Shown here: positions 56,802-59,963 of the stretch, piece after piece | Layout of the letters: each line of letters starts with the position of its first letter | How positions within the stretch are numbered: position 1 is the stretch's first letter | Assembly: GCA_022824265.1 (NCBI GenBank) | Contig: JAJEAG010000027.1 | Span: 62,001-126,000 of the forward strand | DNA length: 64,000 nucleotides | Direction: 5' to 3' | Source: Candidatus Poribacteria bacterium | GTDB lineage: Bacteria; Poribacteria; WGA-4E; WGA-3G | Notes under the pieces: generated by a model | Databases searched by the model: none | What the model was told of the DNA's origin: nothing | The model's input: only the letters and a program-made list of their open reading frames with translations | Program-made: the position numbers and the translations under genes

Positions 56802-56987
56802 ATGCCACAACATTATGATAATGCAGTCAAATATGTTATGCTCGGATATTCTCAAGAATTTGCCGAGTTTATGATAGGACATTCGGACATCAAAGTCTTA
56901 GAAACACTTGAAACCGAACAACCAACCATTAAAACACACCAAAATGATAGCACACTGAAGGTCCAACTTCGTAATGAAGGGAATTAA
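56802..56987 (+). pseudogene. Rpn/PD-(D/E)xK transposase-like fragment truncated by the IS element
   Basis: 61 residues beginning MPQHYDNAVKYVMLGYSQEF, with VLETLETEQPTIKTHQNDSTLKVQL, the N-terminal signature of the Rpn/DUF4351-type nuclease family common in cyanobacteria and Poribacteria. The frame ends in NEGN and a stop that lies within the first bases of the IS left end (56974 onward). TATAAT is 7 nt before the ATG. Neither remaining 3' half nor active-site residues are found after the element. Confidence 0.75.
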
Positions 56988-57101
56988 CTGACAATCCCAC
57001 TGCTTTAGCTGTGGGTCCAATAACGGTTGGTATTTGGAGGTATTTGTCGTATAATTATAAGACTGACTCAGTAGTGGTCAGTATATTATCAGGGATCAGG
57101 T

Positions 57102-58178
57102 ATGGCATACAAAACCCATAAAATCACATTAGCTCCAACTTTTAGACAAAGGCGTTGGTTTGCCCAGCAATGCGGTTATGCGCGATTTGCATATAACCGA
57201 GCGTTAGCAGATTTTAAAACAGGCTTAGCTCAAGACACCTTCCAATCTTGGCAAACTCTTAACAATAACTTTAATAAAACAAAGAAAAACTACACTTGGG
57301 TAAAAGCACAAGATCAACGTGCGGCGTTATATGCTATCAAAAATCTTGGTCAAGGTATTGCGAATTGGGTAGCCAAACGTGCGAAGTTTCCGAAGTTTAA
57401 AAAACGTGGTGTTAGAGATGCTTATACCACAGACGAACAATCTGTGCGAGTAGAAGGCAAGCGTATCAAGTTACCCAAGGTTGGTTGGATCAAAATGCGT
57501 CAAGCCTTACGTTTTGTTGGGAATATTATCAAGGTGACTATCTCAAGGACAGCACATCGTTGGTTTGCGTCTATCTCCGTGGAAACAGAGGACACCGAAG
57601 TCATTGATAACTCAACGCACCCTGTTATCGGTATAGATGTGGGTATCAATACACTGGCAACCTTGAGTGATGGGACGAAGTATGATAATCCGAGACCTCT
57701 CAGGCGTTATGAGAGAAAACTCAAGCATGCCCAACGCAAGCTAAGTCGGAAAGTGCTAAAATCTAAAAACTGGTTCAAACAGAAACGAAAAATAGACCGT
57801 ATTCATTACCGTATTGCTTGTATTCGCAGGAACGCACACCATAAAGCAACAACAGAGATTGTCAAGAATGCATCTACTATCGGTATAGAAACATTAAAAG
57901 TAACTAACCTGCTAAAGCATAAGAAGTTAGCAAAAGCGTTATCTGATAGTGCGTTAGGTGGATTTCTCTCAAAACTCAAGACCAAAGCAGAAGCACGCGG
58001 GGTTTGTGTCATAGAAGCAGACCAGTTTTTTGCGAGTAGCAAAACCTGTAGCAGTTGCGGACATAAGAAAAAAGAACTACTGCTATCAGAAAGAATGTAT
58101 CAATGCGGTGTCTGTCAATATCAGAAAGACAGGGATGTCAACGCTGCAATAAACCTTAGACACCTCGCTGTCGGATAG
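57102..58178 (+). CDS. tnpB: RNA-guided nuclease TnpB (IS605 OrfB)
   Basis: A 358-residue TnpB. N-terminal YKTHKITLAPTFRQRRWFAQQ and an Arg/Lys-rich recognition part precede the RuvC domain: RuvC-I GIDVGINTLATLSDG with catalytic Asp, a linker with KNASTIGIETLKVTNL where Glu is RuvC-II, a CxxC zinc ribbon (CSSCG, CGVC) and RuvC-III DRDVNAAINL with the third Asp. All catalytic acids are intact. Family knowledge: TnpB uses an omega-RNA made from the gene's 3' end and downstream flank to cut target DNA next to a TAM, restoring the element after excision. ATG start with weak ribosome site; the stop lies 13 bp before the omega-RNA segment. Confidence 0.92.
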   Translation: MAYKTHKITLAPTFRQRRWFAQQCGYARFAYNRALADFKTGLAQDTFQSWQTLNNNFNKTKKNYTWVKAQDQRAALYAIKNLGQGIANWVAKRAKFPKFKKRGVRDAYTTDEQSVRVEGKRIKLPKVGWIKMRQALRFVGNIIKVTISRTAHRWFASISVETEDTEVIDNSTHPVIGIDVGINTLATLSDGTKYDNPRPLRRYERKLKHAQRKLSRKVLKSKNWFKQKRKIDRIHYRIACIRRNAHHKATTEIVKNASTIGIETLKVTNLLKHKKLAKALSDSALGGFLSKLKTKAEARGVCVIEADQFFASSKTCSSCGHKKKELLLSERMYQCGVCQYQKDRDVNAAINLRHLAVG

Positions 58179-58191
58179 ACAGAGAGACTAA

Positions 58192-58310
58192 ACGCCTGTG
58201 GAATCCGAATAAGACCTCATTCGGAGGCGCGAGAGACGGAAGCAGGAATCACACAGGAGAGTTGTGTGCTAAAAGAAGCACACGGCTTTAGCCGTTGTGA
58301 GTATCACAAA
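58192..58310 (+). ncRNA. omega-RNA scaffold/right end of the tnpB element
   Basis: A 119-nt segment beginning ACGCCTGTGGAATCCG and ending GTGAGTATCACAAA. It is 96.6% identical (4 substitutions) to the minus-strand segment 59510-59628. The terminal hairpin and the position directly after tnpB are those of omega-RNAs; the guide would be the next bases (GTAAATATATGTG). RNA 5' end cannot be read from sequence. Confidence 0.78.
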
Positions 58311-58393: not shown

Positions 58394-59500
58394 ATGCGAA
58401 AAAACGGACAGGAAGTTGCACAGATTGCTCTATTTCACGGTGTAGACACACCATTTGAGATTTGTGAAGTACCTGTAAAGGATTCAGCAAACACTGTTCT
58501 TGCGCGCGTCAACTTAGCAACCATTTGCGGTTCAGACCTTCATACTGTGTCGGGAAGACGCGGCACCGATGTGCCATGTGTGCTTGGACATGAAGCAGTC
58601 GGAACTGTTGCTGCACCTACAGACTTACATTCTGCTGAAGGGAAACGACTTCAAGAGGGTGATAGAATTATCTGGAGTCTGACAACTTCTTGCGGGGCAT
58701 GTCATTATTGTGTAACCAATAAACTTCCGCAGAAATGCGAAACGATGTTCAAATACGGACACGCACAGTGCGTAGGTGAGGATGTGTTATCCGGCGGTTT
58801 TGCCTCACATATTCAGTTAAAAACTGGAACAGCAATCTACAGTATTCCCGATACGATTCAAGATGTCGAAGCAGCCCCTATTAATTGTGCGCTTGCAACA
58901 GTCATAAACGGTTTAGAAACAGTTGGTACATATCCAGGCGAGACTGCCATTATCCACGGTGCGGGGACATTAGGTATTTACGCAGTATGCTATTTGCGGG
59001 AGAAAGGTTACGAAACTGTTGCTATTGTAGACAAAAACGCATTTCGTTTACAGATGGCTGAACAGTTTGGGGCAACACATACTCTTAACGCAGACACCAC
59101 ATCTGTTGAAGATATTACAACTATCCTGAAAGAGATAACGGATGGACGTGGCATTGACCTGGCAATTGAAGTCAGTGGCGCACCGTCCGCACTACCTGAT
59201 ATGATTAACTGGTTAGCAATCGGTGGAAGATGTTTGACGCTCGGATACGTTTACCCACTTGAAAACATTCCTTTTAAAGTTCATCAACTGGTTACGAAGT
59301 GTATTAAGCTGCAAGGTGTTCACAATTATCATCCTACGGTGTTAAAAACGGCTTTGGGTTTTGTAGAGAAGAATCGAACTCGCTACCCATTTGCAGAACT
59401 CATCGGAAAAATATATCCATTGTCTGAGATTGACGATGCTTTTGCACAGTCGTTCCATCAAGATGTTCTCCGCATTGCCATAGATCCACATGCGAATTGA
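58394..59500 (+). CDS. zinc-binding alcohol dehydrogenase, phosphonate-catabolism-like
   Basis: A 368-residue medium-chain dehydrogenase. Catalytic zinc ligands sit in ICGSDLHTVSG (Cys) and GHEAVGTV (His), and the structural zinc is bound by CGACHYCVTNKLPQKC. The NAD site has GAGTLGIYAV and VDKN. The segment LPQKCETMFKYGHAQ resembles the alcohol dehydrogenase group linked with phosphonate catabolism. No phosphonate genes are nearby, so oxidation of another hydroxyl compound is equally possible. ATG with TTAGGAGAAG upstream. It lies between the two inverted IS elements. Confidence 0.85.
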   Translation: MRKNGQEVAQIALFHGVDTPFEICEVPVKDSANTVLARVNLATICGSDLHTVSGRRGTDVPCVLGHEAVGTVAAPTDLHSAEGKRLQEGDRIIWSLTTSCGACHYCVTNKLPQKCETMFKYGHAQCVGEDVLSGGFASHIQLKTGTAIYSIPDTIQDVEAAPINCALATVINGLETVGTYPGETAIIHGAGTLGIYAVCYLREKGYETVAIVDKNAFRLQMAEQFGATHTLNADTTSVEDITTILKEITDGRGIDLAIEVSGAPSALPDMINWLAIGGRCLTLGYVYPLENIPFKVHQLVTKCIKLQGVHNYHPTVLKTALGFVEKNRTRYPFAELIGKIYPLSEIDDAFAQSFHQDVLRIAIDPHAN

Positions 59501-59509
59501 TATTAAATG

Positions 59510-59628
59510 TTTGTGATACTCACGACGGCTAAAGCCGTGTGCTTCTTTTAGCACACAACTCTCCTGTGTGATTCCTGCTTCCGTCTCTCGTGCCTCCGCA
59601 TGAGGTCTTATTCGGACTCCACAGGCGT
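59510..59628 (-). ncRNA. orphan omega-RNA-like segment
   Basis: Same 119 nt as 58192-58310 with 4 substitutions and no gaps, but no tnpB is encoded upstream. The guide position would read CATTTAATATCAATTCGC, i.e. the end of the alcohol dehydrogenase gene. It could act with the neighbouring TnpB in trans. Confidence 0.65.
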
Positions 59629-59908
59629 AACTTTCCGTATATCCTACGGTAATTAATTAGCGAATGTAGTAGGGACGTTGTCCTAACAACGTATATAAAA
59701 TTATCCACGACTACATTCTAATGTTTTGAGTGATTTCGCACCAGCACCACCAATTTTCTACGATTGGGGATAGGACTCAACACAGGTTAGTGTTGAGGTA
59801 GAAATCCTATCCAAGATGCTGGTATATATTCCAGCATAAAAACTTATAAAAGTCAAGGTTTTCTGACCCAAGCATAAATGCTTGGGATTGTTAATTAATG
59901 CCCTTCAT
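59510..59908 (-). mobile_element. tnpB-less IS605-type element carrying an orphan omega-RNA end
   Basis: Minus-strand element of 399 bp. Its left end ATGAAGGGCATTAATTAACA matches the first element in 23 of 26 positions, with hairpin CCCAAGCAT/ATGCTTGGG (59867-59886). Its right end is the 119-nt omega-RNA-like segment 59510-59628. The interior has no ORF but a long hairpin: GGATAGGA + CTCAACAC (59768-59783) pairs with TGTTGAG (59791-59797) and TCCTATCC (59805-59812), and another at 59816-59837. It is oriented opposite to the tnpB element, with the alcohol dehydrogenase gene between. Confidence 0.78.
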
Positions 59909-59927
59909 GATACTCACCTTTCGGGTG
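59909..59927. repeat. extra right-end-like hairpin abutting the tnpB-less element
   Basis: Minus strand CACCCGAAAGGTGAGTATC directly precedes the left end of the inverted element. GTGAGTATC is shared with both right ends; the hairpin is CACC/GGTG. It suggests a third, mostly lost element in tandem. Confidence 0.55.
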
Positions 59928-59963
59928 TATTGGTTTTTGTCAAAACGCATAATGAAAGACATT

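Follow-up and report, generated by a model that had tools for sequence, protein, structure and literature searches.

TnpB is thought to aid the survival of its own element by cleaving any copy of the insertion site from which the element is missing. In IscB systems, stand-alone omega-RNA copies from which the nuclease gene is absent have been reported and are presumed to act in trans, and TldR proteins are nuclease-dead regulators with fixed host targets. In IS200/IS605 elements of the ISDra2 type, the omega-RNA (reRNA) is normally the 3′ part of the tnpB mRNA and is processed by TnpB (PMC8612924, PMC10278001), which trims its own mRNA to omega-RNA (PMC10278001). The palindrome-associated transposable elements (PATEs) of Haloquadratum walsbyi are non-coding ends or short remnants, some of which arise by repeat-mediated core deletion (PMC3119063). 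PATEs, omega-RNAs, and trans-supplied guides are already known; a non-exhaustive literature search turned up no report of IS605 elements that lack tnpB yet have a promoter of their own and a conserved RNA domain. A candidate for such an element lies in the window (the whole 64,000-nucleotide stretch of DNA analyzed here), which comes from a sponge-associated Poribacteria bacterium. It is one of the R1 elements, a large, previously uncatalogued family, and the R1 domain is itself an uncatalogued pseudoknotted RNA.

Boundaries, ends, and insertion site

The window holds a complete IS200/IS605-type element of 391 bp on the minus strand (positions 59513 to 59903), and neither tnpA nor tnpB was found within it. 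These limits follow from the genome of a sister species (G009), whose empty site at locus L172 shows a clean insertion after (A)TGAA. The empty site reads GGTGAGTATCATGAA|AAACATTTAATATCAATTCG, or equally ATGAA|AAACATTTAATATC; in the filled site of the window, GGTGAGTATCATGAA is followed by the element (GGGCATTAATTAAC...CGTGAGTATCAC) and then by the flank AAACATTTAATATC. The two loci are 98% identical across the adjoining dehydrogenase gene, and the element is absent from L172; by this comparison, it sits 3′ of (A)TGAA, and the target is not duplicated. The target ATGAA to the left of the element (59904 to 59908, minus strand), which is the expected TAM, is present in the empty site, and TGAA stands directly before the left end in all copies read. 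The span proposed in the earlier note, 59510 to 59908, does contain the element but overshoots it by 3 bp on the guide side and by the 5 bp of the target ATGAA. Beside the element, at 59909 to 59930, GTGAGTATC follows a small hairpin and looks like the right terminus of an older, related element; the G009 empty site has it too.

Both ends have subterminal palindromes that resemble those of an IS605 element. The left-end hairpin (CCCAAGCATTTATGCTTGGG, 59867 to 59886, minus strand) is found in the same place and of the same type in complete elements that carry both tnpA and tnpB and have the ends of the window element (L197 and L198, from G040 and G039 of the same Poribacteria family), and the right-end hairpin (59521 to 59541, minus strand) corresponds to paired columns 140 to 164 of the scaffold alignment. 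BLASTN of the element against the window matched the left end to 56974 to 56999 (23/26, E = 0.002) and the right end to 58192 to 58310 (115/119 without gaps, E = 8e-53), exactly reproducing the counts from which a tnpB-less IS605-type element had been proposed. Taken alone, the left-end match is weak evidence, to which the ends of L197 and L198 add support.

The neighboring tnpB element lies on the plus strand (56979 to 58307), its ends being read by the rule of the window element, after ATGAA and to TATCAC. Its tnpB (57102 to 58178, plus strand) is a full-length frame of 358 amino acids with the Pfam domains OrfB_IS605, Cas12f1-like TNB, and HTH_OrfB. The protein, a candidate partner in trans, aligns to the solved TnpB structures 8bf8, 8ex9, and 8h1j (E about 1e-46) and keeps the acidic motifs GIDVG, IETLK, and DRDVNAA. 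Y1 transposases occur in 55 of the 59 genomes of the family; in this assembly (4.45 Mb in 100 contigs, often broken at these repeats), a search for a TnpA with the ends of the window element gave only one weak Y1 match (26.9 bits).

The interior encodes a conserved pseudoknotted RNA domain

The roughly 200 bases between the two ends are unlike tnpB and recur in relatives that have different ends. They contain R1 (59727 to 59820, minus strand), which scores 104.7 bits against its covariance model and is the sole R1 match within the window. R1 is a domain of about 95 nucleotides, located downstream of a promoter-like site and consisting of helices P1 (AGCAUC/GAUGCU) and P2 (GGAUAGGA/UCCUAUCC), an inner hairpin P2b, and a hairpin P3. 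A 7-bp pseudoknot joins the P2 bulge to the P3 loop, its strands being UUUCUAC (59798 to 59804, minus strand) and GUAGAAA (59755 to 59761, minus strand), which covary, with both-side changes in 4 of the 7 pairs.

In an alignment of 14 distinct sequences, 98.3% of the cells of the R1 structure are paired (100% in the pseudoknot helix), and 14 of the 34 pairs have double-sided changes. None of 500 shuffles reached the observed pairing percentage, double-change counts, or covariation score (four of five measures), and control structures slid along the alignment were 33 to 44% paired, compared with 98%. Across 73 distinct R1 loci, 67 contain their own pseudoknot complement of at least 6 nucleotides, compared with 22% when strands were mixed across loci. 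The earlier note had described the interior as structured RNA-like DNA, and folding bears this out: the presumed minus-strand transcript (59822 to 59513) is more stable than its shuffles, with a z score of −6.0 (0/100). An origin of the interior as decayed tnpB, which the earlier note had named among the observations that would refute its proposal, was rejected, as the sequence upstream of the scaffold has no similarity to tnpB and R1 covaries.

The R1 model gave 118 matches, spread over 40 of the 59 genomes of this Poribacteria family; in 26 genomes from other families of the phylum, it gave none. About a dozen exact-motif matches in other phyla scored 12 to 21 bits, lacked the structure, and were attributed to chance. 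Rfam 15 gave nothing at gathering threshold over the window and no match to R1 in ten further loci; a known Rfam RNA was dismissed, since no curated family matches R1 or the whole RNA.

The commonest setting of R1 is a tnpB-less element built like the one in the window; the remaining copies lie in the 5′ leaders of host genes. Judging from these loci, conservation of R1 is not specific to guide RNAs, because R1 also occurs in host-gene leaders without any omega-RNA. Such copies without IS ends lie right after a promoter in leaders of unrelated genes (L115, L119, L137, L139, L141, L143, L160, L161, L165, and L166). In leader copies, the first strand has two possible downstream partners (AGCACTT, for example, can form pairs with AGTGCT or with AAGTGC), a switch-like arrangement, so R1 is possibly a switch. 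A metabolite-specific riboswitch is not favored, the downstream genes being of unrelated kinds. At orthologous sites of two species (L117:1501-1590 and L120:1501-1590), R1 is accompanied by an omega-RNA-like scaffold without IS ends and lies upstream of the same lipoprotein-like gene, possibly as a fixed, adopted guide-RNA-like leader.

A promoter-like site precedes R1

Upstream of R1, the window element has the promoter-like site TTGACT-17-TGGAAT (59828 to 59856, minus strand; 9/12), with a degenerate −10 box. The consensus of the family is TTGACA-17-TATAAT, and the −10 box mostly ends 6 to 8 nucleotides ahead of R1, which should place R1 at the 5′ terminus of the RNA. Within the 55 bases before R1, a TTGACA/TATAAT pair matching at least 10 of 12 positions was found in 62 of 76 R1 loci, compared with 1.5% of control 55-mers drawn at random from the same loci. 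The −10 box is TAGAAT in the sister copy (L029 of G009) and TGGAAT in the window copy, whose site was not reported by a stricter standard promoter scan. The promoters of L029, L094, and L038 are stronger. Because its −10 box is degenerate, the window copy may be expressed weakly.

Omega-RNA scaffold and predicted guide

From about 59650 to 59513, the RNA tracks the 3′ end of tnpB elements. The TnpB omega-RNA scaffold and right end (59513 to 59628, minus strand) terminate in ..GTGAGTATCAC and are 96 to 99% identical to other copies in the genome. Upstream lies the scaffold stem CCGUA-GGAUA-UACGG (59635 to 59649, minus strand), the counterpart of CUGUC-GGAUA-GACAG at the tnpB 3′ end; in an alignment of solo and tnpB sequences, two of its pairs show both-side changes, in 7 and 4 of 18 sequences, and scaffold stems of some solos (L032 and L058) contain mismatches. 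R1 and scaffold are linked by a variable connecting stem (59662 to 59718, minus strand) whose arms, 59710 to 59718 (GAATGTAGT) and 59662 to 59670 (ACTACATTC), form a perfect 9-bp complement; a locus's own complement of at least 8 occurs in 10 of 21 loci, compared with 7% across loci. The best Rfam match to the scaffold, HPnc0580 (E = 1.1), was weak and was dropped as an independent omega-RNA yardstick.

Since the scaffold reaches the right end of the element, the predicted guide is the flank outside it, AAACATTTAATATCAATTCG (59493 to 59512, minus strand), directly 3′ of TATCAC. The same sequence stands 3′ of ATGAA in the G009 empty site; in the occupied site, TCAC stands where TGAA stood before the guide sequence. 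A search of this genome for a second target (TGAA plus 14 nucleotides, at most 2 mismatches) returned nothing besides the occupied site, and on this criterion the predicted guide fits only the empty allele. The view that the omega-RNA scaffold is intact, and that its guide differs from the one belonging to the neighboring TnpB element, is supported.

Other R1 elements carry a different scaffold and end (..GTACTATGAC), which is also located at the 3′ end of an intact, unrelated tnpB in G006, G011, G015, and G004. The two scaffold types behind R1 indicate that one promoter-plus-R1 module has been joined to scaffolds of unrelated TnpBs. No full tnpB was found in 76 R1 loci; two R1 elements (L164:1909-2004 and L167:1504-1599) carry about 30 codons from the tnpB end, located after R1 and ahead of the right end, and this points to the capture of right ends from tnpB elements through recombination. 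In a small tree, solo right halves from G000/G009, G013, and G033 group with tnpB elements found in the genome itself or in a sister genome, and those of L030, L032, and L058 are diverged or without clear placement. Because the right part clusters with resident TnpB elements and two relatives hold a piece of tnpB, the right-end near-identity, from which the earlier note had argued for use in trans by TnpB, is by itself weak evidence; a recent exchange of right ends could account for the 115/119 identity. The conserved pseudoknotted interior with its adjacent promoter speaks more strongly for a dedicated guide-RNA gene.

Mobility and other tnpB-less copies

A copy in G009 (L029) is 97% identical to the window element and has unrelated flanks, indicating that the window element has undergone recent movement despite lacking both tnpA and tnpB; no counterpart of the L029 flank, which would have allowed a second empty-site comparison, was found in this genome. 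About ten further near-identical pairs of R1 elements have unrelated flanks (for example, L068/L169, 99.7%; L088/L170, 97.4%; and L114/L131, 96.7%), which indicates that R1 elements move without tnpB. Among R1 pairs at least 88% identical, flanks are unrelated in all with IS ends; where IS ends are absent, the flanks of a pair can be orthologous (L117/L120 and L123/L128). At the level of sequence comparison, these loci show the anatomy of the element, its precise insertion, and the movement of family members as units. No carriage of the element by a phage or virus was found.

The further tnpB-less copies that the earlier note had suggested looking for do exist, both as R1 elements in relatives and within this genome, and by their sequences they are of two kinds. 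L006, on contig C73, and L007, on contig C85 and thus outside the window, are ordinary deletion derivatives, in which tnpB has simply been deleted between CAGGGAT repeats; they have the same internal deletion with different right-end subtypes, and its junction was found in this genome only. The window element is of the other kind. L007 lies directly upstream of a panB-like reading frame. Another tnpB-less element, L172:2780-3185 of G009, has IS605-type hairpins, a promoter-like site, and an RNA unlike R1, and it lies directly upstream of a tnpB element.

DISCUSSION

The reading that we favor, with a probability of roughly 0.6, is that the window element amounts to a stand-alone omega-RNA gene that is mobile: TnpA would move it in trans, and a resident TnpB would take up its RNA to cut the empty allele. 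A Y1 TnpA from a related element would act on its ends in trans, and transcription would start at R1 and pass the right end into the flank AAACATTTAATATCAATTCG. The resident TnpB would bind the scaffold, probably trimming R1 off as with its own mRNA, and with the flank as guide would cut element-free copies of the site at the TAM TGAA, after which repair would restore the element. In this scheme, through R1 the guide RNA would gain a promoter as well as protection or regulation of its 5′ end, independent of tnpB transcription. We infer expression, TnpB binding, and cutting; members of the R1 family would probably borrow TnpB from neighboring elements to persist in the genome.

The main rival is an ordinary non-autonomous IS605 element, or PATE, that TnpA moves through its DNA ends and in which the omega-RNA is an unused passenger, similar by descent or recombination with resident tnpB elements. 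Core-deleted PATEs are well known (PMC3119063), and L006 and L007, in which a left and a right end are joined at the short CAGGGAT repeat, fit this description, as do the tracking of resident elements by the right halves, the exchange of ends implied by the tnpB remnants of L164 and L167, and the weak −10 box of the window copy. A passenger, however, would have no use for the conserved promoter and pseudoknotted domain that accompany several unrelated scaffolds in two genera, and the conservation falls in sequence beyond the terminal hairpins that TnpA is expected to need; these features argue against the passenger interpretation, which we regard as possible but doubtful.

An RNA that restrains TnpB is quite unlikely: a hybrid of R1 and omega-RNA would bind TnpB, with the 5′ R1 blocking cutting and shielding non-autonomous copies or the host. 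Cleavage by the complex can indeed be inhibited by a region of tnpB mRNA (PMC10278001), and R1 lies 5′ of the scaffold throughout the R1 elements, but TnpB removes 5′ extensions from its own RNA (PMC10278001) and the guide is correctly placed for cutting. We find it very improbable that the window copy is a regulatory RNA adopted by the host, either as a promoter-leader or as a guide-directed regulator of neighbor genes. The presence of R1 in host-gene leaders, some at orthologous sites (L117/L120 and L123/L128), speaks for such a role, whereas the window copy inserted recently, being absent from this site in the sister species, points at the 3′ end of the adjoining opposite-strand gene, and has a guide without a second target in the genome.

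Beyond the stand-alone guide-RNA gene that we favor, we offer a broader and more tentative proposal: R1 may be a new regulatory RNA class, possibly a switch, that acts as a host-gene leader and was taken over by IS605-type elements for the control of stand-alone guide RNAs, which parasitize several unrelated TnpBs and exchange scaffolds with resident TnpB elements. If small elements hold only a guide RNA and their own promoter, they would gain protection without the cost of a nuclease. This would amount to a second layer of parasitism inside transposons and a natural trans-acting guide system, and would parallel, on a small scale, the parting of guide RNAs from nuclease genes en route to CRISPR. 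With the R1 model, exact ends, an empty site, a guide, and a candidate TnpB in hand, the family is defined well enough for direct tests.

Among known systems, the stand-alone omega-RNA copies of IscB are likewise guide RNA loci without a nuclease gene; they differ in nuclease family and RNA, have the guide at the opposite end, and lack R1. TldR guide RNAs are, similarly, TnpB-derived guide RNAs uncoupled from transposition, whereas the TnpB here keeps its acidic motifs and the predicted guide fits the empty site only. As in ISDra2-type omega-RNAs, the scaffold lies at the right end, the flank forms the guide, and the target motif is at the left end, but here the RNA is a separate one with its own promoter region and a 5′ R1 domain replacing tnpB sequence. 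The window element resembles PATEs in having IS605-type subterminal palindromes with neither a transposase gene nor a target duplication, and L006 and L007 match the PATEs of Haloquadratum (PMC3119063); beyond these, the R1 family adds a conserved transcription module and a structured RNA joined to an intact omega-RNA scaffold.
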